Assembly: GCA_947034885.2 (NCBI GenBank)
Contig: OX344758.2
Span: 3,040,501 to 3,104,500 of the forward strand
DNA length: 64,000 bases
Reading direction: 5' to 3'
From: Thuidium tamariscinum
Taxonomy: Eukaryota > Streptophyta > Bryopsida > Hypnales > Thuidiaceae
Below the pieces are notes generated by a model. That model had not been told where the DNA came from. It searched no databases and saw only the letters and a list, made by a program, of their open reading frames with translations. How positions within the stretch are numbered: the stretch's first letter is position 1; each line of letters begins with the position of its first letter. Both the position numbers and the translations under genes were made by a program. Shown here piece after piece: positions 2,563 to 49,723 of this stretch.

Positions 2563-3843
2563 CTAGGCCTGCAGAGCACACTTCTTGGTTGCGGGGTTGA
2601 AGCTGTAGGGGATGAGATACTTGCGCCCCCCGACACCATTCACGTTGTAACTCGCCCCGGTCTTGCTCTTGAGGAGATTGCCGGCGTAACCAGGGTAAGC
2701 ATCCTCGCCATAAATCCCAGCACAAACGGCCACAGCTTCGGAGCCATCGTATATGCTCCCTTGGTAGTATCCGTTTCCGAGAGTGTTCGTTGCTGCGCCA
2801 GAAATCATGCTCGAGATCGTGATGCTCATGCCGTCCACGCCGACATCACCGTTCGGTGCCTTGAGCGGGGGAGTGTTCGGTCCAGCGCCATAAGGTGCCT
2901 TGGCGAAGGGCCAAGCGCAGGTTCCCGGGCACGTCTTGGCAGGGTTTCCTACCCACACGAAGGGTAAGGCCTTGTGTTGCGTTGCCAGAGAGCGTGTGTA
3001 ACTGTGGGTGCCGCACTGGGAGCTGCAGAATCCTTGCACGGCAACATCCGCGGATGTCAGCACCAAGTACAGGGCGGTCGGATCAACAAACTTAGGATCA
3101 ATGGTCTTCAAATTCTTCGTCACCAGCAACTCGATATCCGACTCCTTCAGGTTCTTCTTCAAGCTGTAATTGGCGTCTGCAATTACCTTCCCCAGGACAA
3201 CATTCTGTGCCACTGAGGTCTTCTTCGTGTCCTTGAAATTCTTCGTGATCGCCCACCACCCTGCCACGGTAGGGTAGCCCTTGCTCGCCTGCGGACCCGT
3301 AAACGACTTAACGAGATCAGTGACAATGCCTTTCTGCGTCACCGTCCAGGCGCCATAAAAAATCACATGCACTTTCAAGGGGGTGCCCGTCAGCAGTGGG
3401 CCATAGTGGTACTTCAGATCGATGGTCGGATCTGACACGAGGAACTTCTGCCCTCCGGCGAAGCCTTTCTGCATAACTTCATGGTAAGGGATTGCTCTGC
3501 CGCCGTGGGACCATTTCGAACTCCCTAGTGCAGTAGCTTCATAAGCGGGGATGTCATCAGGTGCGAACGAGTTCCAAGACACCGCGAGAATGAGAAGAGC
3601 GGACAACATCCCAATCAAGATGTTGCGATTCCGAATAGCAGGGCTGGAACTGAGCAACGGCGTATCCTTGATCGACATTGTCGGAGAGTTTTTGAGCTTC
3701 ACTTCTGAATTCAAAGAGGTCGCGCGGGGCAAAATGGGTGTGGAGTCCGACAGATCCAACTTAACGGAAGAAGCCGTCCGTTGAAATGCCGCCATGCTTT
3801 CTCGCACACTCGACGCACTCCTCTCCAGCGGAGACCCTGCCAT
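2563..3843 (-). CDS. EXORDIUM-like protein (phosphate-induced protein 1 family) with N-terminal membrane anchor
   Basis: The family (PF04674) acts at the plant cell surface in brassinosteroid- and carbon-related growth control; no enzymatic reaction is established. The single-exon frame matches it over about the last 300 residues: YHYGPLLTG, KVHVIFYGAW, FTGPQ, VAGWWAITKNF, ALYLVLTSADV, GFCSSQCGTH, FVWVGNP, CPGTCAWPFA, APNGDVGVDGM, YPGYAGNLL and a final GRKYLIPYSF with a C-terminal Cys. Paired cysteines suggest secretion. The N-terminus is unusual: about 75 Ser/Thr-rich residues precede one hydrophobic segment (ILIGMLSALLILAV), which looks like a type II signal anchor and not a cleaved signal peptide. 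I chose the first ATG (3841-3843). A second in-frame ATG at 3793-3795 has a better Kozak context (A at -3, G at +4) and would shorten the protein by 16 residues. The frame continues upstream only through a TTG. Being single-exon is normal for the family. Confidence 0.93.
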   Translation of the reverse strand: MAGSPLERSASSVRESMAAFQRTASSVKLDLSDSTPILPRATSLNSEVKLKNSPTMSIKDTPLLSSSPAIRNRNILIGMLSALLILAVSWNSFAPDDIPAYEATALGSSKWSHGGRAIPYHEVMQKGFAGGQKFLVSDPTIDLKYHYGPLLTGTPLKVHVIFYGAWTVTQKGIVTDLVKSFTGPQASKGYPTVAGWWAITKNFKDTKKTSVAQNVVLGKVIADANYSLKKNLKESDIELLVTKNLKTIDPKFVDPTALYLVLTSADVAVQGFCSSQCGTHSYTRSLATQHKALPFVWVGNPAKTCPGTCAWPFAKAPYGAGPNTPPLKAPNGDVGVDGMSITISSMISGAATNTLGNGYYQGSIYDGSEAVAVCAGIYGEDAYPGYAGNLLKSKTGASYNVNGVGGRKYLIPYSFNPATKKCALQA

Positions 3844-4087
3844 ACAACCCGCTGAATCCCACACTCCACGCACCAATCCACCTACAGCCTCTCCACCAGA
3901 TCCTCCTCCTCCTTAATCCAATCACCAAGCAATGCACTCAAATTGCTACTCAACCCAAATCTCTCAATTCCAAACAATGCAGCTCCCCAAACCCCACCTG
4001 CCTGCCTGTTCAACGCGCTAACGACCTCGAAACCTCTTCTACCTCCTCCAAATTCTCTCCTGCACCGTCCAAGAACAGACCTAACTG

Positions 4088-12449: not shown

Positions 12450-13613
12450 CTACCTGGGACGCTCATCCACTTTCACTTTCACTTCAATCCCACTTTTCCT
12501 CGCTCGCTCTGCAAACGAACTCGACGTCAAAGCGCACTCAACAATGCCTGCGCATTCTGCAGGAGGCAAGTCCTTGATAATCTCCAGCAACCTTTCCTCT
12601 TCTTCTATTGAAACAACAACAGATGGTGAAGCCGCTGCAGCATGCATTGCACTGTGAGGAGATCGTAAAGTTCCCCGCGTCTGGCAAGCCAGCATGGTCT
12701 TGCAATGTTCCGCTTCATCCTCTCGAATGTTATAAAACACATCATACAAATTCTCCACCTTCGGTCGCCTCGTATTTGGAATGCGGTCCGTTTGAAACTC
12801 GTCAAACAAATAGAGGTCCCCCTCGGTGTAGTACTTCACTGCAACTTCAGGAGCAGGGAGCTTCTTCAACTCGTCGCCATGTAACTTGATGAACTCGTCG
12901 TATGTGTGAAAAGCATGCTTCTCAACACACTCGGAGAAGTGGTAGGCCATCCGAGGACTGAGAAGGTACATGATCACCGTCATGAAGTAGTACCCAACCG
13001 CAATATGCTGCGCTAAAAAGCGATCGACCCAGCGCTCGTCCCCGCCCAAAGCCTCCATCGTCAAGAGGTGATGAAGCTCATTCCAACTCTCTGCGAAGTG
13101 AACCTTGATGTAGTCCGCTCGCCGCCACCAACCAAAACTTTCGTACATGTGGAGGACGGACACAAAGGCGAAATAAGGAACGCGAGCAATTGTTTCCAAA
13201 ACGTAAAAACGAGCGTAATCCCTGTTCTTGTAGAAAACGTCTAGGACTTGGATCACTGCGTCGGTAGCAAGCCGGTTGAACGCCTTCTCGGCCTTGATCT
13301 GCCATTTCTCTAGTGTTTGGAAAGCCTCTCCAGCATCGCCATCACTCACCCCAGTCTTCTCTGAATCGACAGCTTCTTCCTCCACTTCCCGTTCCTCCAC
13401 CAAAGCCCCTCGGGTCAATTTCCGACTGCAATTTTCCCGAACCCCAGATTTTTTAAACTGGGTGGAGAGATGAAATACTCTCCTACTCTCGCATAACCGC
13501 AGCGCTCCCCCTGCAACTTTCCTACCGCATTCCAAACGACTTCGTGAAACCTCGGCCGCGCGGAGGACTAACCCCTCGCCCCTCAGTAATCCACCTGCCA
13601 AGCTGCTTGCCAT
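12450..13613 (-). CDS. PTOX: Plastid terminal oxidase (IMMUTANS type)
   Basis: A di-iron quinol oxidase that moves electrons from plastoquinol to oxygen at the stromal face of thylakoids, supporting carotenoid synthesis and relieving over-reduction. The 387-residue frame carries all six expected iron ligands with the spacing I recall for the Arabidopsis protein: E140 (VLETIARVPYF), E179 and H182 (SWNELHHLL), E231 (ECVEKHA), E300 and H303 (DEAEHCK). Other plastid-oxidase signatures are HMYESFGWWRRADY, SPRMAYHFSEC, and the PTOX-specific segment before YYTEGDLYLFDEFQT. These place it with PTOX and not mitochondrial AOX. The first 60 or so residues are rich in Ser, Arg, Leu and Ala with few acids, fitting a transit peptide; an acidic linker follows. 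The start is the first in-frame ATG. The frame has no intron, whereas angiosperm PTOX genes are multi-exon. The tail after residue 325 (Glu-rich, ending KVKVDERPR) is longer than I expect. Confidence 0.95.
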   Translation of the reverse strand: MASSLAGGLLRGEGLVLRAAEVSRSRLECGRKVAGGALRLCESRRVFHLSTQFKKSGVRENCSRKLTRGALVEEREVEEEAVDSEKTGVSDGDAGEAFQTLEKWQIKAEKAFNRLATDAVIQVLDVFYKNRDYARFYVLETIARVPYFAFVSVLHMYESFGWWRRADYIKVHFAESWNELHHLLTMEALGGDERWVDRFLAQHIAVGYYFMTVIMYLLSPRMAYHFSECVEKHAFHTYDEFIKLHGDELKKLPAPEVAVKYYTEGDLYLFDEFQTDRIPNTRRPKVENLYDVFYNIREDEAEHCKTMLACQTRGTLRSPHSAMHAAAASPSVVVSIEEEERLLEIIKDLPPAECAGIVECALTSSSFAERARKSGIEVKVKVDERPR

Positions 13614-14617
13614 GGTTTCAAGGAAACGCTCTCATAATCTCCAATTTGCAAGTCTCGACTATGTTAAACCCAATTCCAAAAATGCGAGAACACAAACTCG
13701 CTCAGAAATAACGACCTGAGACAATCGCAAAAATTACAATATTACAATTGATCTTACAGTTGCGAGAGCTGCCACAAACGCGCATGGAAATACTGAGCTG
13801 CAACTGTGAGACAATGGCAAAGAATACAAACTCAAATCTCAATAAGAGACCTTCAAATCAAGATTGACTTTGTGAGTAAGTTATGCAACCACCAAATGCT
13901 TCACAAGGAAAAACCCACACAAAGGAAGCACGCTTGCTTCGCCAGACTGATAAAACGGTTAAGAAATTGGTCTCAGAGGACGACGATCTAAGCAAGTAAA
14001 CAATCTATGACCTATCTATCCAACCGCTCAAAATTTAATGAAAACCAATTGTGAAACGGGACGGGAAATAACTTACTCGCGTGGAATTCGCTGGATTCGC
14101 CGTCTGGGACTGAATTGTGCAAACCCCACAACTAAAATATCCGAGGGAGCTTCATCGTCATCGAAAGGCGAAACGGGTGGACTGAAAAAGGTTCGACGTC
14201 GTTCCGCAGGAGAGCCATTTGGCTTGGATCCCTGGCCTGGCGACGTCGACGAAAAAGTTTCAGCCACTTTTTAGTGACTTTTCACAGGTGAGTCCGTCCC
14301 AGCATTTCATTTTTTTATAAGGTAAAAATCAGCCTATGACAGGCAGATTCATTGTTGGAATTTCACTTAAACCCTTAAACAACGGGCTGGTGACCGTGGA
14401 AATCATTGATTTGTAAAAAATCCAACAAAAAGCCCACATAAGATTTTCCCTTTCCACCCCTAATTATGAGGATAATTAGTTCCACTTTTGTCCTACACAT
14501 CAAGATGCTCTCTCATTCATCAACTTAAAAACAACCTTGACAAATATGGGAATTGGGGAGACCAATTGAAATTTTATTTTTTTGACAAAGTATGAATTTG
14601 TAATGGATTTTTGAAGT
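13614..14617. other. Upstream region of PTOX with open frames on both strands
   Basis: It probably includes the PTOX promoter and 5' UTR. At 14038-14274 a 78-codon plus-strand frame starts with ATG. The opposite strand at 14073-14267 is also open and is followed by a donor-like GCGA/GTAAGT at about 14,070, so a minus-strand 5' UTR exon spliced toward PTOX is conceivable. Neither frame has a recognisable domain. From about 14,300 the sequence becomes AT-rich. Confidence 0.3.
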
Positions 14618-28439: not shown

Positions 28440-28807
28440 AAGTACCCAAGATTTAATTTAATTTTGCTGGATTTAATTAGATTTAATTAGATTGATTTGA
28501 CTTAATTTTAGTTGTTAATTTATTAATATAGGGTAAGTATGCAATGTAATGTGCATTGTTTAAGTTTCTTACTCTGTTGGAAGTGGTTGGTTGTTTTCAA
28601 TTCTTCTTTTATGTAGAATGATTGATCCAGCATATTGTATGGCTATGGTATTGATTGCTTTGAAAGTGTGTGTTAGAGCAGTTTCTGTTAATTTGAGTTT
28701 GGCTTCAAGGATTTTCATTGAAGGAATGTGTGTTGTTCCTCTAGCTCCTGCTGTAATGACAATAAGTGGATCTATTTTCCATCCTTGGGCGCGATACTAT
28801 TTATTAA

Positions 28808-29230
28808 TGGTTGGTATTTTTGAATTTTATTATCTATGGTTGTTCGTGCAAATCTATCATTAGAGTATGTAAATTCAATGAATTGTATTGTGAGATTATT
28901 ATCTGGGATATTTGGTGGGTTGCTCTGGTAGGAGAGTCCTTTAATCCAGAGGATATCCGGTTTAAATCTAGCATTACAATGACATCTTTGTCTTTGGCAA
29001 GAGCAAGGTAGAAACCATGGGGGGACTGTGTTTTCTTGTGGATTGTTATTGAATGTTCCTGCATTCATGAGAGTATAATATCTACTATTTTTGGTAGATA
29101 GGATTAGTTTTCTCAATTCCCATACTGCTTTGTTATGTCTTTTGACACGAAGGGCATGAATATGATGTTGTTTGCATTTTAAGAGTACATGGAGCCATGT
29201 GTCTACGTCATGAGAGTTACAAATGGAGCA
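28808..29230 (-). other. CCHC finger and PD...E restriction-like endonuclease region of the LINE
   Basis: C-x2-C-x9-H-x4-C is followed by KRHN, then KPDILW and IEFTYSND with a downstream lysine pair. In R2-type LINEs this layout marks the C-terminal restriction-like endonuclease. The finger could instead be the common zinc finger of RT C-termini, but the PD...E half argues for a nuclease. Confidence 0.7.
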
Positions 29231-29605
29231 TGTGATGGATGGAAATCTCTCAATCCCAAAAAATAATTGTTTTCTAGCATTTCCCATGTATTGGCCGGTG
29301 CGGAATTTTAATAGGCTTGTTTTTTGTGAGTCGGTTATTTCAGGGTTTGACCAAAATTCATTAGAGAGGTCCTTATGTATATCAGGGTTAAGGGTCCATT
29401 TACTAATGTTAGGAAATCGTTGTGCCATTATTTCAAGATTTTTATCATGATCATGTTTAATGATGTATGTTCCTAAACATCTAACCGGACCTTTGTCAGG
29501 TCTATGGGCTTGACCTGGCCATTCATCTTTTTGGTAATAGAATGGAGTAGTATGTGCAAATTCATACTTTTTTGAGGCAAATTTATATTCTTTTGTTGTG
29601 CCATT

Positions 29606-30028
29606 TTTTGCAAGTTTATCTGCTTGTTCATTGCCTACAATATTAGTGTGGCCTTTAATTTTGGAAATTGTTGTAGGTTGTGTACGGTTTTGAAGCATCT
29701 CTACTATAGATTCCAATATAATTTTGTCCGCATGGTTGCGATGTACAGTAGGATGTTTTAGTTGTGTATTGAGGACATATAGGCAATTTAGGCAATCAGT
29801 GAATATGTAGGCAGGTTCATGTGGATATTGGATAGTGATTATGCATAGACTTTTGTGTATGGCCATGAGCTCAGCTCTAAAAATGGTTTGTAAACCAGGA
29901 AGCCGTTTAGAGATTTGAATTTCTTCTTTGAAAGAGTTGTATATGTCGTATCCTGCTTTTTCGCGTGTCCAATGTCCATTTGCATGTTGTTGTGGTGGTA
30001 TAAATGAACCATCCGTGTAGTAGCTATA
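29606..30028 (-). other. RNase H domain of the LINE
   Basis: It contains the four-acid DEDD set in order: D in YYTDGS, E in FRAELMAI, D in YIFTDCLN and D in GNEQADKLAK, with the SKIKGH histidine loop before the last. Its role is removal of RNA from the RNA-DNA hybrid during second-strand synthesis. All four acids are intact. Confidence 0.9.
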
Positions 30029-30250
30029 TTGTGGTGGGAATTTTAATTGAGGGATAGATGTATACGTTGGTAACGGGGGAATATATAAATTTATTGAATT
30101 ATAGTTGATTTTATAAGTTAGTTTTTTCCAATTTGAATTCTTTTTTACTATTACATTACTGGGTGTTGGTGCAGCAATTTGTATATGATATTGTGGAATT
30201 TCCATATTTCGGAGGATTTCTGTGAGGGAGTCTAGTTGGTTGGGTGGACC

Positions 30251-30721
30251 AATATTGTGGTTTCGGTGATGTATGCATAAAATATGTATTGCAAGAGGTT
30301 CAGTGTGTGGTTGTTTGTTTAGTTCCATTGAAATTGTTGGTTTTTCATATGTAATAGTGTCTGCAGCAAAATGTGCAATAACGTGTGTATCTTCAAATGG
30401 TCCAATATATGGGGAGAAGTTATGGTACCAATTTATATCCGGTATGACTAATATAGTTATGGTGTCTACATCATGTTTGGCTGCTAGTCTTGCCCAGTGT
30501 AGTGCTTGTTGGGCTGTTTCTTCATTTTGTGGATGTGCAAAACCTTTGCCTTTCCATTTGTATTGAAATGTTTTGCCAAGTGATCCAAATACTCTATCTC
30601 TTTCAAAGAAAGAGTAAAATTGTGTGATTAGTGTGGAGCAGGTGATTGGTGATGAGAAATATGAATGAGAGATGTCAAATGTTTTTGTTAAGGAGTCTAA
30701 GATGTTTTGTGGAAGGGAGTG
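30251..30721 (-). other. PCIF1-like adenine-N6 methyltransferase-like region inside the LINE
   Basis: Between the RT and RNase H the frame reads SLPQNILDSL, FSSPITCS, FYSFFERDRVFGSLG, GFAHPQNEETAQQALHW, TITILVIPDI and FEDTHVIAHF. This order parallels the catalytic module of PCIF1 as I know it: LPP...L..LF, FASPLNC, a phenylalanine-rich helix, then YFGSRG, an NPPF loop followed by E and a helix, a hydrophobic strand ending in P, and a late HxLI-like strand. The catalytic NPPF is HPQN here, so methyl transfer by this copy is unlikely. In cells PCIF1 methylates cap-adjacent adenosine. Whether active relatives of this element keep NPPF is unknown. The call rests on motif order, not on a profile search. 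Confidence 0.6.
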
Positions 30722-31457
30722 TTGCGATGTACTTAGCGTGTTTTTGTTAGATTTCTTATATTTGTAACGTTGATATAGCCATGTGATCTCGGTTTCAAAT
30801 GATTGTGTAGGTGGTGTCAAGCCATGCGTACTATGAATAACAGTTTGATATTGTTTCCATAGCCATTGTAATCTAGTGGTTGGAATAGTTGTGAGGTAGT
30901 TACCGGTGTCAAGGTATATATGTGTCAGTTCATTTTGCGTTATTATGGTAGGTGTGTTTGTTATTATGTCTTTTTTTGGATTGCATTCATTAGTTGAGAT
31001 TTGCATAAGTGGAATTATTGTTGGAGGTGGGATAAATCTAGTATCTCTGGATTGTTCATGGTTAAAGTTGACCATGATGAGGTTTTTGTAGTATTTGTGT
31101 TGTTGTTTTGTATAATATTGTGTTAATAGGTTGATGTTGTGTGCAATTACTGTTGGTTGATTAAACGGGAAAAGATATCTTTGTGGTAGCCATTTACTAT
31201 AAGTGGTATTATTTTCAAGTGTCCATTGGCATAGATATATATTAAATTTTTTAGGGATTTTGTGTTTGTCTTTGATGTCTTTGATTTGATGGTCTATTAT
31301 ACTATATATGGGGAAGCTAAGTGGGTTGTTTTGAATATGTAGAGGTGGATTTTGTTGTTGTGGTATTTGTACTGGTGGTGGGTGTGGAGGGTTATATGAA
31401 GTTCGGGGAATTAAATCTCGGTTATCTGAAATGTATTGTGCTCTTAGAGTTTTTGGT

Positions 31458-32210
31458 ACTGGGTCATTGCAAGAAAGACCTGCGGAAAAGCGTAGCGTTT
31501 TGCACAGTACTCATTTTTTTCTTTGGGAGTACTATATAAATAGTAAATCAATTTTTTTTAAAAGTGAAAAATATGTTTGATGTATATACCTTTAAGAAGA
31601 AGATACCCTAGGAAGGAAAAGTATAGAAAAATTCTCTAAGTAGGAGAACTAGAAAAGTGCTTAATTTCATGAAAATTGTAACTTTTACTACAATTTCACA
31701 TTTTAATTTGTAAAAAATAGGGAAAGTAATTTTTCTTAAAACTAAAAATTTTCCATTTGGGAAGACTTTATGGTAAAGGTATTTCACCAAAATAATGATC
31801 CAAAAACTATCTTGATTGTTCAAAAATGTGAGCGCAAGAGAGGCCTGTTAGCACACATGTAGAGGAAAGAGAATAATGATTTTTTAAATTTCCTTTTGTG
31901 GAAACATGCCTACTTAGTGTAGGAATAGACCCTAGAAATCTCAGCTCTAAATTATTAATTGAAAGTACTCCCCAGTACTAAAAACCCCTAAATCGCAAAG
32001 TGTGACAAATTAGAGAAATTAGAATTTAAATATAAAATGATTTTTGAAAATTTCTGAAAAATAAGGGTTTTGATAACTATCAAGTCAGTCATCTTCAATA
32101 AAAATTTCAAGTTCAAAGAGTTAATACTTCAAAAGTTATAGCTCATGACAACTCCGTCACTCAAAGTGTGACGCCAAATAGTACAAGTCTTTCTTGCATT
32201 CACCCTAGTG
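31458..32210 (-). mobile_element. CACTA-type non-autonomous element inserted in the LINE
   Basis: A 753-bp insertion flanked by GGT on both sides (31455-31457 and 32211-32213). On the minus strand it begins CACTAGGGTGAATGCAAG and ends with the degenerate inverted copy CTTGCAATGACCCAGT, including an 11-base perfect core GCAAGAAAGAC. A 3-bp duplication and CACTA ends fit the En/Spm superfamily. It is non-coding and splits LINE ORF2 after the RT. Related sequence occurs at about 6,340-6,640, 49,724-50,640 and 56,380-56,860. Confidence 0.8.
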
Positions 32211-34257
32211 GGTGTCTTGGACAGGGTTGTAAACATTCAGGTGTACATTGTGGGTAACAGAAAAGTTGTTCAGCTATTTTTAAAGCAACTTTTTCAATTT
32301 TGGTTGGAGTTTTATAGTATATTTTGAAGTCTTGAGGTGTCATTAAATTTGTACCATTTGGGAGTGTAATGTGTTTAATTTTATATATGTTATGTAAAAG
32401 AAGTTTATGTAGCATTTTAAAGGAAAGTTTGGAATTTATATGTGGGAGAATAAGAGTAGTTTGTGACATCCATTCTTTTTCAAGTTCTGTTGGATGTAGT
32501 TGAAAGTTTTCTATTATATTCATGAGGTGAATGTTTGCTTCATGCTTTAGAAGAAAGAGGGTCCTTGTTGTAGGTGATCTAATACAATCTTGTTGTTTGA
32601 TTCTTGGGATGTTTTCTGCCCCTCCATACTTGGCCAAGATATGGTGGATGAATCCTCTATATATTATTCCTAGTCTTCCTGAATCGTTTAGAGCATTTCT
32701 AAGTTGTTCACTAATGCAACGTAGGTATGTATTTTTAAGAGAGAAGGCTTCAAGTCCAAAAAATTCATGTGGAAGTTGTGCTATTACATTGGCAGTGCAT
32801 TTTGGTAATCCACATATAGTTTTCTGAATTCCAATGATCTTTTTATCTAGTTTTTTAATTGTTGGTAGAGAATATGGCACTGCATAGAAACTGTAGGCTA
32901 TACCTGCTCTAATTACAGTGTCAACCATATTGATTTTTTGTTTTATTGTAGTTGGGCACTTAGCAAGTTGTGCACATTGATCTGTTACCTTTTTAGTGGT
33001 TATATGAGTTTGTAGTTTCCATTTTAGAGAAGGTATTAGTTGTATTCCTAAATATGGGTAGGGTTCGTGTTGGTATAAAACTGGTATTTGTTGGTTTCTA
33101 TAGCTAATGTTCATGGCAAGTATTTGAGTTTTAAAGATGTCCGGTTTTGTTTTTGTTTTATTTGGGCATCCAGTGATTGCACATTTTGGTACTCCTAAAT
33201 CCATTCCTGCCCATTTACAATATTTATCTAGTTTATTTAGTTGAGATTGGAGTGATTGGGGATTATTTGATGTAGCTGCTAAGTCATCTGCATATGTTGA
33301 AGAACTTATAGTTATCTGGGATGTACCAAATTTGTAGCCATTATTACCTTTTTGGAGCCATCTAAGTAGCGGTTCAAGAAAAATAAGGAAAAGGTATGGA
33401 CTGAGTGTGTCACCTTGAATGGTTCCTCTTTGTATTTCTATTGGTTTAGTTTTACCAAAATGTTCTCCTGTAAAAATTGTAGTGGAGTTTGAGTAAATAT
33501 TTCCTATTAATGCTACTACGTCTTTTGGGTATCCAAGGTCTGACATTATAGTCAGAAGCCTTGCGTGGTCTATGGAACCATAGGCGTTTTTGAAGTCTAT
33601 ATATAATATGTAAATGTCTTGATTAGTGAAGCGTGCATCTTCTAGAGCTGCTATAAGAAGTTGTAGTTGTCGTGATGTGCTACGTTCTGGTCTAAATCCT
33701 TCTTGGTTATCATGAAGGATTTGGTATTTTTCGCCATAGTTTGAAAGGGTTAAAGTGAGAGTACTAGTGAAAAATTTGTAGATGGTGTTTGCAAGTGCAA
33801 TTGGTCTATGATTTGATAATTGAGAAGGATCTCCTTTTTTATAAAGTAATATAGTCAGACTAGTTTTCCAAGATGATGGGATTTGTTTGTGTTTATAACA
33901 ATGTTTGAAGAATAGAAAAAGGAGGTTTTGAAAACATTGAGGCATATTTTTAAGGATTATATTTGGAATTGAGTCTGGACCAGGGGTTTTATTGTTGGAT
34001 AAGTGTTTTAAACATATGTCATACGTTTCTTTAGTGAAGTAAGTATGTAAGGGAATATCCGGGGTTCCTCTTTTGTCTATGACAAAACCATTTAAGTCAT
34101 GCCAAGGGTATTGTCTCACTGCGCATGTACAATGTGGTGGGTGTTCTGGTAGATAATAGCATGTTGGAACTGTAGGGCTATTATTAATTGATTGTTGAGT
34201 GTGTATTTCATTGGCAATGTCTACAGGGTTGGTGAATAAGTTGTTTTGTCTATCCAA
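32200..34257 (-). pseudogene. LINE ORF2, reverse transcriptase part
   Basis: A 685-codon open frame that opens at a TTG because it is the middle of a larger ORF; it continues upstream in frame to about 34,508. RT motifs: NKTPGPDSIPN (90-99), KKGDPSQLSNHRPIAL (about 140-155), EGFRPERSTSRQL (186-198), YIDFKNAYGSID with D221, RGTIQGDTLSPYLF (277-290), and the catalytic box TYADD with D324 and D325. The thumb region continues to a Cys cluster (CYPQCTPECLQPC). Its stop is created inside the end of the inserted CACTA-type element. All catalytic aspartates are intact, so the domain decayed recently or only by insertions and frameshifts. Confidence 0.95.
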
Positions 34258-35082
34258 AATGCAATCTAGTGGGGGGGTATTTTGGTTTTTGAATATATAT
34301 ATATATATTTTTTTGGGACTTTTTTCATATAGTTGTCTATATTTTGAGATTGCCTTTTTAATGCATTTTTGAGTATATTGTGTAGTTATTTTACGAGCTT
34401 GTATGTTTGCATTTTTGGCTAGGTTTGCTATGGTGTTAATCCATTCTTGTTGGTTAGTACCATGTATTTCAGGTGGTGGGATGTGGGCATTGTTGTGATT
34501 ACGTATTTATTCTATTATTGGGTGGATTGTCCAATTTGTTGTGTGTTTGGATATGTAGATTGCCTTCCTAATCAAGTGGTAAGTAGAGAGGTGAGCTTTC
34601 CATTTTTTCTGTATTTTTCTTGGTAAAAAACCACCTTGTTGGGCTGTACGGTTTGTTAGTTCGGGTAATGGTGGTGCACTACAGTTTCAAGTATTTTATT
34701 GGATATACTTTGTATGAGGTAGTCTAAGGTATTACATGCTTCATGCCATTGGTGGTTTGTTATATTTTCATTTGTAAGAATGGTGGTGAGTTCATTTATT
34801 TGAATTGCGTGTTCCTCAAAGAATTTTGTTTTAAATCTTTCTATATTTTCTTGGGGAATAGGGTTTAATATTCGTGGTGGTTTATTTATTATTGGTGTTG
34901 TAGGTCTTGCTAGTAATGTATTTGGTGGTATATGTAATGTTACTAGTGAATGGTCTGAATTGAGGTTGTGGTTATGATTTGTGGTTGCTATGTATAAAAT
35001 AGAATTAGGTGTATTTATATAGTAACCATCTATTAGACTAGTTTGAGTATAGTTTTGACCACCTTGTCTAGAAAAAGGGCTG
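34258..35082 (-). pseudogene. LINE ORF2, linker between endonuclease and RT (frameshifted)
   Basis: After the (TA)n tract the endonuclease frame resumes with TNSPFSRQGGQNYTQT, IDGYYI and SDHSLV, which are the last conserved AP-endonuclease motifs. It stays open to about 34,680. There the frame shifts by one base to one reading NRTAQQGGFLPRKIQKKWK, hits a TAA at about 34,510, and continues in that frame into the RT. A second (TA)n tract at about 34,298-34,313 encodes an IYIYI insert. Confidence 0.8.
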
Positions 35083-36585
35083 TTAGTAGATATATATATA
35101 TATATATGTAAGTTGCTGGCTGTCTGTAAATCTACGCCATTCTATGTCTTCTGTTTGTGGTGAAGTTATGTTAAATTCATTTTGTCTACCAATGAGGGCA
35201 ATGTCTCTGTTGAAGTCTCCACATAGAATATAAGTGTATTGTGAGTGTAGGGAGATTTGTTGACTTATACATTGTTGGATTTTGGGTATCAATTGTAAAT
35301 CATCTGTGTGTGATGGCATGTACATGTGGAGTAGTAGCCATGGTTGTAAAGGGTGATTGTTGATTTTTATAATTTGTAAATATGGTGAGAATTCAGCTGG
35401 AATTGGAATTTTGGTTATGTTTCCTGGGTATGCATATTTTTTATTTATTAGTGTAATGAGTCCACCACGTCCTGGTGTATATGGTCGTCTCTGTTGCATA
35501 CATCTTGTTATTGCGTGCGTATTATTAAATATTAATTTATATTGTGGAAATAAATTTACGATATATTTTGTGGATTTTGTTGCAGTGATTTTGGTTTCTT
35601 GTATTGTTATTATTGTAGGGGTAGTTGGTGTGTGTGATGTTAGTTGTTGGAGGCTTGGTAAGGCTATGTTGATCGATGCGGCGTTCCATGTGGTCATGTA
35701 TGTATTGAAGTTAGTAGTTTGTGTATTTGTAGTATCTGTGTTTGGTAAATTGGATAGAGGAGTGGGTTGGGAGTATTCTGTTAAGGTGTCTTTGCATTTT
35801 AATGCTTCTAGAAGTAGTTTCTCAAGTAGGTATGGAAATTTGTTAAGCATTATTTGTAAGGTTGGTGTTGCAGGTGTTTGTTTAATGAAATTATATATTT
35901 CTTTGTGAATGGAGTTGGAAGGTTCAATGATATCTTGGTGTAGATTTTTAAATTGAGTGTATGGGTGTGGTGTTGTGATATGTCTTTCTGGTGGATTTTG
36001 TAAGAGGGCCATTTTTTCTAGTAATAGTGTGGTCCAGTCTGGGATTGATATTTGTCTTAATAGATGGTTACATGTCTCTAATTGTGGACTGATTGTGGTA
36101 ATAAGTGCAAATAAAAGTCTTGGTGGTGGGTGATGTTGGTTTTGATGAATGTATTGTGATATGTAAGGGTAATTTATGGTAGTGTCGTTGTGGTGAGGGT
36201 GTGTAATGTTTATTATGGGTGAGAATAGTTTTGCTAAATGTTGGTATTCGGGTTGTAGTTTTATTGTGCATATTATAAAATACATTTTATATCTATTTTT
36301 ATGTGAAGGTGGGTGGGTGGTAAGTATATCGGGCATGGGTCCCGGGTTAGTTTCTATATCACCACATAAAAGCATTGTAATGTACAAAGGGAATTTTTGG
36401 TGTTTTGAAATAAGATAGGTGGTTTTCAATTTTACTTGAATATGTTGGCAAATTTTACTAAATATTTGAATATGGTTGCCAACCAATATAATGTGTTTAT
36501 GTGTATATAAGTGTGATTTATAAGTGTTTAATTTTTGTGTAAGAGTTCTAATGTCAAAAACGAGGTGGAACTTTGATGAGGGCAT
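35083..36585 (-). pseudogene. LINE ORF2, 5' part: 2A leader and AP endonuclease
   Basis: I start at the first ATG (36583-36585); the frame is open a little further but only from a TTG. About 75 hydrophobic and basic residues lead to the 2A motif (36337-36360). A Thr/Pro/His/Gln-rich spacer of about 220 residues follows. Then come the apurinic-endonuclease motifs: TTWNAASINIA, IQETK, GRGGLITLI, LLHMYMPSHTDD, and CGDFNRDIA (GDFN at 35209-35220). The domain nicks target DNA to prime reverse transcription. The frame ends in an IYIYIY run from a (TA)n tract (about 35,088-35,107), which has displaced the last motifs to another frame. The coding strand is A/C-rich, giving many Thr, Pro, His, Gln and Ile codons. 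Confidence 0.9.
36337..36360 (-). other. 2A-type ribosome-skipping motif in LINE ORF2
   Basis: The frame reads TMLLCGDIETNPGP followed by MPD, matching the consensus D-(V/I)-E-x-N-P-G-P with the final Pro starting the downstream product. Known 2A sequences make the ribosome skip the last Gly-Pro bond, giving two proteins from one ORF. Here the split would release a leader of about 80 residues from the endonuclease-RT polyprotein. Confidence 0.85.
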
Positions 36586-36728
36586 GGAGAGAAGCAAAAG
36601 CAAAATATATATATAATATTGCCACCAAGTGGCAGTGTACAATAGTGTGATGCAAATAATGGATGATAAAATACTAAGGTATATGACTATGGTACTCTAT
36701 TTTTGGGTGATGGCGTTGTAAAACTGAA

Positions 36729-38369
36729 CTAGTTTGGCGGTGAGGAGGGTTCGGGGGCTTTAATGGCTGAGCGAGTCAAGCCTTTAATCATTTGCATGCT
36801 CTCAGCTAAGAGGGATTCTAGGTTTGTCAGGTTACCTCTGAGCTCCTGATCTACCTTGTCTGCATAACTTTGTGCCTCTATTGTCAGTTCTTCTTTCATT
36901 TGACTCATGTCAGACTTAAATTCCATACGCAGCTTCAAATTTTCTTTGGAAACCGCCTCTCCTATCAACTCTGATAGTTGCTCATTCTGTAATGATTGTT
37001 TTGGGGCAGAGGATGATGCTGTGTTCTGCATTGCTTCAACTGTACTAGCTAAAGCAGTGTTGATGTCCAAGAAGCCCCATTTCTGAAGGATTTCATCATT
37101 GGGTTTGGCAGTCCCATCTAGAGAGTTAGGATGGGGCTAGAACTCCACCCATTTGTACTGAAGGCGTGTTGATTTCTTCACATGTTGCTTATAGACTGCG
37201 GCGTTGAGACATTCGATGTTGGCTACACCACTATGAGCATCTCCTTTATACCAAGGGGAGAAGATGGATTTGACATTTTTGACTCCAAAGTGGTCGTGAA
37301 ATCCCTGGGTTACTTCAGCAATGGATTTGGTGAGGTTGATGCCTTTGACAATGAGTACTAGGCAGTTTATCTTATTCACCTCTTCACGGGTCAGTTGATT
37401 CAAGTCTCGATTAACTGGTTGTAGAAGTTCTCCCAATACTGCAATTCGTTGCTGCTTGATTTTTGCCAGTTGCTCCGGTGATATTGTTGTCAGCCAGCCA
37501 TAAGGTTCAGCGGTAGGTTTTTGAACCTGTGTTAGCTCAAATTCAAAGCCCCTATGGAAACTCTCTTCGAGTGTCTGTTTGAAAAGGTGGTGGGGTTCCA
37601 TGTTCCGAATGGTCTCACTATTAATCTTGATAGAGAGTAGGGTACTAGAGGTAATAGGATCAAATGATTTGGAGACTTTGGCTATTGTGAGTATGTCATC
37701 ATCTAGAGGAATGGCAAACACTCTAGTACCACGAAGTAGAGCTTTACCATCAATTTCTGGGTTTTGAAGGTGAATTCTAGCCATGCCTGACCAGACTTTG
37801 GAGTTTTTGGCTCCATGACATAGGATTGCTATGGGGTCGGCAATGCTATCACCTAACTGTATGTTCATCTCTTGAAAACACCCCAAGATCTTTACCATGG
37901 CTTGTTTTTGGGTCAATGGGGACAAAGGCATTTCGAAATGTAAGAGAATGTGGTAATCGAGAGCAAGTTGGATGTGCATGTTTACCTCGACATTGAAGGG
38001 AATTTGAGTCAGGTTGAAGTGCTAGCTTGCAATATTGTCAGGTCTTGATGTAGGCCACAGCTTTTGTTGCACGTGAGGAAATGACATACAAGCTTTTGTG
38101 AGGTCCTCTGCTTCTTGTGGATTGTATCCCTGAGTAATGAGTTCTGGTACTGATGCTTTGTTGATGAACAGCGGCATGCTGGCTTCATAGGCAAGGGTTT
38201 CCATAGTAGGAAACCTATACCAAAATTCGTAAGACATTGGTTCACTGAGTAGGGCCATAGTTGTGACGGTGCCTTTCGATTTCTTTTGTGTTGATTCTTC
38301 AGCTTCTGGTGTGGTGCGTTTTTGAGAACCAGACGCATCTTCCATCTCTATTTCATTCGAGTAAGCCAT
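36729..38369 (-). pseudogene. LINE ORF1 with two in-frame amber codons
   Basis: Three open pieces lie in one frame over 547 codons, separated only by single TAG codons at 38022-38024 and 37137-37139. It starts at an ATG at 38367-38369. Order: an acidic and Lys-rich N-terminus; a middle part of unknown fold; a region with VNKINCLVLIVKGINL, HFGVKNVKSIF and GVANIECLNAAVY that looks like an RRM-type RNA-binding fold; and after the second TAG a Glu/Lys/Leu-rich probable coiled coil (SKENLKLRMEFKSDMSQMKEE). RRM plus coiled coil is typical of LINE ORF1 RNA chaperones. Both TAGs could be former CAG codons. The composition is balanced, unlike ORF2. Confidence 0.75.
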
Positions 38370-38390
38370 ATGTCTCCAAACTTTGTTGCT

Positions 38391-47941: not shown

Positions 47942-48598
47942 CTAATCACAAAAAGACCTCAAATCTTCTTTGCATGATTTCAATTTTTTAAACCAAGGAA
48001 GAAGAGTATCAAGTAGAAACGTGTCTAGCGGACCGTGCCCCTTGTAGATCCACGTATCTAGAAGAATGACATTTTGAACTTTGTTCAAAATATTCTTTGC
48101 TGGTGAATCATTCACCAACATGGTATTCTCAAAAGTAAAGTTTTTTCTTCTATCACTAAACAAAATTGAAATGTCCTTCAAGAAGAGGTCCTTATTTGTA
48201 CCTGACTCATTGTGTGTTGTTATCCTACTATAACTATCCCTGCACTTTAGTATCGTACAAGAATCTTGTCCAAGAACAACCAAAGGCCTATCCTTGCCCA
48301 AAAAGAGGTATGCAATGATATCATCAACAATGGACTTCTTCATTGAATTCCAAATAGAGACAAATACTATTTGGCTTAGCTCTTGAAGAAATTGCGCACA
48401 ATTGGGACGGACATAAACTAGTTTTGGCCCAACTACTGTTGGATTAATAGGAGAGTGCAGCTGCTGCTCGATAGGAATGTCTGTTCCAAATTGATTGTGC
48501 ACTCTCTCTTCACAGTCGCAAAGTACTCCGTTAAGATCCAGGACAACGTTGAGCCATCTCTTGGTCAACCTAGACCTCAAAGGAAGAGCTACATCCAT
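47942..48598 (-). CDS. FCP1-like HAD-fold domain protein with altered catalytic motif
   Basis: A 218-codon frame starting at ATG (48596-48598) matches the FCP1 homology / NLI-interacting-factor domain: VVLDLNGVLCDCEE at 18-31, VYVRPNCAQFLQELSQ at 61-76, VFVSIWNSMKKSIV at 78-91, and LVNDSPAKNI at 161-170. Active members dephosphorylate Ser of the RNA polymerase II CTD or other proteins through DxDx(T/V). Here the second Asp is Asn (D21-x-N23), and the later DD pair is ND, so catalysis is doubtful. I recall other plant proteins of this group with DLNG, so it may be a normal non-catalytic subclass. The protein is short, mostly just the domain, and could continue in other exons. No signal or membrane segment is seen. 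Confidence 0.75.
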   Translation of the reverse strand: MDVALPLRSRLTKRWLNVVLDLNGVLCDCEERVHNQFGTDIPIEQQLHSPINPTVVGPKLVYVRPNCAQFLQELSQIVFVSIWNSMKKSIVDDIIAYLFLGKDRPLVVLGQDSCTILKCRDSYSRITTHNESGTNKDLFLKDISILFSDRRKNFTFENTMLVNDSPAKNILNKVQNVILLDTWIYKGHGPLDTFLLDTLLPWFKKLKSCKEDLRSFCD

Positions 48599-49723
48599 GG
48601 GTGACTTCCCACGACCATTGGGAGATACTCCTGTCGTGTTGTAAATTTGTTCACTATGTAAAACTTATGTTTATTGTTAAAGTAGAGGGTTTTTTCGAGA
48701 GTCTAATCCATCTATATGGAGTGGACTCTACATTTTTTACCTCTATTAAACAACTATTGGCATTAATTTGATTTTTTTAATATTTGAAGTCATTTTAGGC
48801 TTTTAGTTTTACTTTCAAATTGTTTAAAAGAAAGGTGAAGTTTGTTTTACCTTTCATTTAGGGTTATTTAAAAAGGACTAGAAGTCCATGTAGGAGATAA
48901 GGATAGGGTTATGGGGAAGAAAAGTGAAGACCAATAGTTGAAGTCAAGTCCATGTGGCTTTGTAGTGGTCAAACTCCACTTCACTAGGTGGTAGATAAGG
49001 TGGAAGTGCTTCTTCCTCCTTCCCTTGATATACTTGTTAAAGCTGGGACTTTGGGATTATTATTGCACATTGGATAGGAAGAGTTTTTTCAATAAAAATT
49101 TGTAAAGTTGTTCATTTTATTTTTGTGACTTTGAAACCTTATTACTCGCTTTATTTGAAGTTTTAATGCAAAGGCTGTGCTTGAGGAAGTGGGAGAGGCA
49201 AGATTGTCATAGACAGTGAAGGTTGAACTTTTGGAAGCTTATAATTATGTGGTGACGAGGGTCCTTCATTTTCCAAGCCAAACCTAATCGCAGCTAGACA
49301 CTTTGTGTATTCCCTAAGTGCGCTCTTCTCAACTTGATATTGCCACCTAGTAACAAATGGACAAATCTCTACTGTGTTACCAAAAAATTCTTGCTAGAGT
49401 GAACACAGATCTTATATTTTCACACTAAAACAACAAAAAAAACCTTAGGAAGACGTCCAAGTTAGAATTTATGTCTAACAGAATGGACACAATGAACTAT
49501 TAGTCTCGTTAGTTCTGACTTCTTGCACTATACCCTAATTCAACAGGGTAACCTAGATTTATACATATTATATGATACGAGGTGATGTTTTATTAATAAG
49601 ATCAAATTCATATTGTTTGCCCTAAATCTTAAATTGCAAGCACCATGGTTAGACTTTAAATCTATGCCACTATATTTCAATAGTACAACTATTCTTCTTC
49701 TTTCATGCTCACCTCTCATTATA
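48599..49723. other. Intergenic DNA upstream of the FCP1-like gene
   Basis: No supported gene. The first few hundred bases are presumably promoter or upstream exon of the minus-strand FCP1-like gene. Confidence 0.45.

Follow-up and report, generated by a model that had tools for sequence, protein, structure and literature searches.

A PCIF1-type methyltransferase domain, most likely non-catalytic, between the reverse transcriptase and RNase H of a dual-endonuclease LINE

Introduction

Which domain does a damaged LINE of Thuidium tamariscinum carry between its reverse transcriptase (RT) and its RNase H, and does this domain still methylate adenines? The question arises from a 64,000-nucleotide stretch of DNA, here called the window, in which a preliminary description had read positions 30251..30721 as a region resembling PCIF1/CAPAM, the cap-specific adenosine N6-methyltransferase. 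Methylation of the element's own RNA or DNA had been considered there, as well as a structural role after loss of the catalytic motif in this copy. We analyzed the element, the domain and the relatives of both.

Results

The LINE and its surroundings

The LINE lies on the minus strand. Since neighbouring ORFs match the three host-like genes given below, the window was taken as eukaryotic; four further ORFs scanned alongside gave no match.

2563-3912, minus strand: Phi_1/EXORDIUM, host-like gene (E 1.6e-94)
12450-13631, minus strand: alternative oxidase, host-like gene (E 9.8e-39)
47942-48664, minus strand: NIF-type phosphatase, host-like gene (E 6.8e-17)

The element itself is composed of the following parts.

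36729..38390, minus strand: ORF1-like reading frames in three pieces, upstream of ORF2
34656..36696, minus strand: ORF2 N-terminus in two overlapping frames (35083-36696 and 34656-35141)
36337-36363, minus strand: GDIETNPGP, presumably a 2A-like peptide, near the ORF2 N-terminus
35209-35220, minus strand: GDFN of the apurinic-type endonuclease
32200..34506, minus strand: RT ORF (RVT_1 E 3.7e-29, residues 224-489)
33283-33294, minus strand: YADD of the RT
31461..32205, no strand assigned: 745-bp insert with 22-nt inverted repeats at both ends, splitting ORF2
28772..31510, minus strand: 912-aa ORF with linker, PCIF1-like domain, RNase H, zinc knuckle and restriction-like endonuclease
29600..30028, minus strand: RNase H domain (PF00075 E 6.8e-14)
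28772..29485, minus strand: R2-like C-terminal part, start approximate, on evidence including a model of relative P0005
29174-29230, minus strand: CCHC knuckle in the R2-like part
29123-29140, minus strand: RHN in the R2-like part
28943-28963, minus strand: KPD in the R2-like part
28865-28879, minus strand: IEFTY in the R2-like part
28569..28796, minus strand: final C-terminal part of ORF2, out of frame with the 912-aa ORF

The two ORF1-like pieces that were scanned gave no Pfam match above cut-off. Between the two N-terminal frames of ORF2 the shift falls inside a TA-rich run, and the GDIETNPGP peptide, which we take to be 2A-like from its motif, suggests ribosome skipping ahead of the endonuclease part. 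The apurinic-type endonuclease of the window copy stays under the cut-off of 24.5 bits (PF03372 E 0.0074, 16.5 bits); that of relative P0090 is matched at E 4.4e-13 over residues 29-264. Compared with the PDB, the RT yields three R2 proteins on top (E 3.5e-32 to 1.4e-29) and LINE-1 ORF2p from E 3.1e-20, followed lower down by 8gh6 and 8ibw (E 5.9e-17 and 1e-15), whose chains are named 'Reverse transcriptase-like protein' and which are R2 going by their titles. A frameshift near 28780 cuts the last part of ORF2 off from the 912-aa ORF; compared by eye, this part looks like the C-terminus of relative P0002. For the RNase H and C-terminal parts only, a 672-aa model with a low mean pLDDT of 64 was used. 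The RNase H and the R2-type restriction-like endonuclease at the C-terminus are, like the apurinic-type endonuclease, marks of Dualen/RandI, and by its domain content the element is a dual-endonuclease (Dualen/RandI-like) LINE. Rfam returned no RNA at gathering scores and NCBIfam nothing beyond the other annotations.

The 745-bp insert is located between the RT and the PCIF1-like domain of the window copy. Its inverted repeats are 86% complementary and no clear target-site duplication was seen by eye; probably it is a small DNA transposon within the LINE. Relative P0001 is continuous at this place, so that the insert is specific to the window copy and not a property of the family. P0090 is a single protein of 2281 aa in which endonuclease, RT, PCIF1 and RNase H follow each other in this order.

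Homology and predicted fold of the domain

Within the 912-aa ORF, the region between RT and RNase H shows the following features.

about 30209..30958, minus strand: PCIF1-type methyltransferase domain, ORF residues about 185-434, extent by structure
30440..30820, minus strand: PF12237 match, ORF residues 231-357 (E 6.4e-14)
30689-30715, minus strand: LPQNILDSL
30635-30658, minus strand: FSSPITCS, opposite FASPLNC of PCIF1
30575-30610, minus strand: FFERDRVFGSLG motif, opposite the AFPDTDGYFGSRG-type stretch of PCIF1
30524-30544, minus strand: GFAHPQN, the former catalytic loop, with HPQN opposite NPPF of PCIF1
30428-30460, minus strand: ITILVIPDINW

All motifs quoted in the preliminary description were thus recovered, on the minus strand, and the place that it gave to the region, between RT and RNase H, is right. 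The segment that it delimited is indeed homologous to PCIF1, the true stretch being larger by structure.

The resemblance to PCIF1 goes beyond chance. With 52.4 bits the PF12237 match passes the curated cut-off of 31.1, as do those of the relatives P0090 (31.5), P0091 (42.2) and P0002 (35.3 bits), and 61 of the 63 family members scanned are matched at E <= 0.001; for P0092 no PF12237 match is listed at E up to 1. A phmmer search of the PDB at E up to 10 returned two sequences, both of them PCIF1 (6irx, E 4.3e-4, and 6irv, E 4.7e-3). When the profile of alignment A2 was compared with the PDB, the best 60 of 86 matches were RNase H or RNase H-bearing RT chains only, and a domain-only alignment was then built for the PDB profile search. 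A 12-member profile found 6irx at E 8e-8, with a best stretch that stops short of the catalytic loop. Among 100,000 shuffled versions of the ORF, none contained the pattern of the two main motifs, which had been picked post hoc.

The predicted structure has the fold of the PCIF1 methyltransferase domain. Foldseek comparison of the whole model with PCIF1 gave modest TM-scores of 0.42-0.46 at an rmsd of 5.8-6.8 A; the structural match begins at PCIF1 residue 417, and upstream of the domain the model has low confidence. The next-best fold family scores about ten Z units below PCIF1, on which grounds we rejected both a match by chance and a resemblance to Rossmann folds in general. Sequence, profile and predicted structure all support the homology of the window domain to PCIF1. 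At E up to 10, neither the RT ORF nor the 912-aa ORF has a separate WW family among its listed matches, and P0090 has none at E up to 1.

The stretch LWKQY..GLTPPTQSFE (ORF residues 217-248, 30767-30862, minus strand) bears a non-significant likeness to the piece LRQHY..GIEPPRESFN, which lies upstream in PCIF1. An internal deletion relative to PCIF1 might account for it.

A tblastn search of phage records with the domain gave no match at E up to 1, and one genome-contig scan and the viral-contig scans revealed no relatives. In public records, LINE fragments including P0006, P0009, P0010 and P0016 are labelled 'ribonuclease HI', and P0006 is filed under an archaeal MAG. These names and this filing are likely to be mis-annotation or mis-binning.

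The former catalytic loop across the family

The loop was surveyed with a domain profile over 93 sequences, where 80 of 92 rows span it. NPPF occurs in none of these 80 rows, the window included. At the position of the catalytic Asn, 78 rows have a residue and two a gap; His is found in 74 of the 78, Phe in two and Tyr in two. Loops of the window branch mostly read HPHN or HPHT, HPPP-like forms occurring in a few members, and P0092 has FPDF. Alignments A1 and A2 show conservation of at least 90% for each of the loop residues G, A, H and P, which in the profile survey are present in 70/79, 73/78, 74/78 and 72/81 rows, respectively.

A looser signature of the methyltransferase motif permits His and thus HPPF. 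This loop was found in three distant members, P0089, P0090 and P0091. The plain pattern [NDSH]PP[FYW] matches four of the first 89 proteins (P0089, P0018, P0036 and P0081). It sits at the loop in P0089, while P0081 has no loop at that site; the loops of P0018 and P0036 read HPHN and HLHN, so their matches lie elsewhere. A D/N-P-P-F/Y/W-like motif is missing from the collected members as far as D or N in the first position is concerned, but not if the HPPF of the three distant members is counted.

Because the change extends across the collected family, the loss looks both old and shared, and no accident of the window copy; the earlier statement that the motif is lost in this copy is too narrow. 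In contrast, the RNase H of the same copy keeps catalytic-type residues (TDG, AE, FTD, AD), and the RT likewise retains those of its own. Methyl transfer has presumably been lost.

In view of these loops, it is unlikely that the domain is still an active methyltransferase, with an unusual motif, and that it methylates adenines in the RNA or cDNA of the element. FSSP and D..FGS, the motifs ahead of the loop, rank with the most conserved blocks in the domain and would suit an active enzyme, as would the PPF retained in the three HPPF members. Against this stand the absence of the catalytic Asn from all 80 loop-spanning rows and the disappearance of the Phe from the window branch. In PCIF1 itself, inactive mutants are altered at N553 and F556 of NPPF, APPA and SPPG being such inactivating changes according to excerpts of PMC10544176. 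Excerpts of PMC9479742 describe a change of Phe to His in the NPPF of Drosophila PCIF1, offered by the authors as a possible reason why flies lack m6Am. Given the family-wide motif change, methylation of the element's own RNA or DNA is unsupported, and the structural or non-catalytic role is the better of the two alternatives first offered.

Conservation of the domain

In alignment A1 (28 sequences) the mean pairwise identity is 0.58-0.60 for the core of the domain and 0.56 for RNase H; the linker between them reaches 0.31. For the 19 of 93 sequences that contain over 80% of both domains, the mean p-distances of the two domains amount to 0.45 and 0.41. The distances of the two domains correlate with r 0.85 in these 19 members, a value as high being obtained in 0 of 2000 permutations. 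Among 45 members, linker 420-490 shows a p-distance of 0.63 versus 0.42 for the domain. ORF residues 60-225, partly outside the domain, show 0.49 versus 0.41 for the domain (19 members); they are only slightly freer to change and fairly conserved in their turn, so the domain is not alone in being conserved. These distances indicate that domain and element have a shared history, and selection has presumably maintained the domain.

A functionless, decaying passenger is extremely unlikely on these figures. The window copy is broken elsewhere, by the insert and by frameshifts, as a passenger in decay would lead one to expect, but across the 19 members the conservation of the domain is near that of RNase H. 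Its position between RT and the R2-like C-terminal half and its evolution congruent with RNase H would also fit a purely structural role, in which the domain binds nothing and, as a spacer or dimer interface, keeps RT and RNase H at a set distance. Such a spacer would have no need for a conserved former-active-site loop (G, A, H, P), while linker 420-490 varies freely, and we regard it as rather unlikely.

Discussion

With moderate confidence, we interpret the domain as a PCIF1-type domain that was captured by a LINE and has stayed between its RT and its RNase H; most likely it serves there as a non-catalytic binding module. The fold, the motifs ahead of the loop and the new loop are still conserved, which indicates that the domain works; probably it handles nucleic acid instead of methylating it. 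A Dualen/RandI-like LINE would once have acquired the domain from a PCIF1-type gene, where it formed the methyltransferase part, and would have kept it at this place. Early on, the catalytic Asn of NPPF would have been replaced by His, and in the window branch the remainder of the motif would have been lost as well (HPHN). The domain could then act as a nucleic-acid clamp on the path from RT to RNase H, guiding the template RNA or the RNA/cDNA hybrid along it, a role suggested by position and analogy.

Retention of the predicted fold and of the pre-loop motifs would equally allow SAM or SAH still to be bound, with the domain serving as a sensor or a stabilised pseudoenzyme. As LINEs have no known need for a sensor of this kind, we consider this very unlikely. 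In the three distant members, HPPF may leave room for activity. It is decidedly unlikely, if conceivable, that the domain of the HPPF branch still works as an adenine methyltransferase, modifying element RNA or the RNA/cDNA hybrid while target-primed reverse transcription proceeds, and that the window branch later became a reader or clamp at the same site.

For the binding module, the cap is an unlikely ligand by the route of PCIF1, because the helical domain, to which cap recognition by PCIF1 is reportedly assigned, was not found here. If the binding module is real, an RNA-modifying fold was recruited into a reverse-transcription machine and retained there despite the loss of its catalytic residue, which raises the question of what ORF2p needs between RT and RNase H. 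There is also a practical warning: matches to PF12237 in metagenomes can be LINE fragments and not cap methyltransferases.

Comparison with known systems

Compared to PCIF1/CAPAM, the window domain is without NPPF and fused into the ORF2 of a LINE; the WW domain of PCIF1 is not reported for the window element, and the part corresponding to the helical domain is unmatched in it. Drosophila Pcif1 is, like the window domain, a PCIF1 relative with an altered NPPF that has nevertheless been retained, but it is a host gene and its change concerns the Phe (excerpts of PMC9479742). Although called catalytic-dead, the fly protein is reported to affect fertility still. The window element would add a retrotransposon case to such inactive PCIF1 relatives.

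Dualen/RandI LINEs share with the window element the apurinic-type and PD-(D/E)XK-type endonucleases and the RNase H, whereas a PCIF1-like domain is not mentioned in the excerpts of the two papers concerned (PMC3636483, PMC4640811). Among the cryptophytes studied, every one but Guillardia theta is described as having an expansion of LINE/Dualen (PMC12747079, in excerpt). None of the open-access literature matches listed, a scope that leaves key papers on Dualen, PCIF1 and adenine methylation outside, described a PCIF1-like domain in a LINE. The parts are of known kinds, and the novelty of their combination is not established.

Retrotransposons that bear methyltransferases are likewise known from DIRS elements with DAM domains and from Gypsy and DIRS elements with cytosine methyltransferases, for which the excerpts of PMC6338049 speculate about a defence against DNA viruses. 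Those cases belong to other element classes and involve DNA methylase domains that are not of PCIF1 type. A PCIF1-type domain in a LINE, derived from an RNA enzyme, would differ from them in kind.
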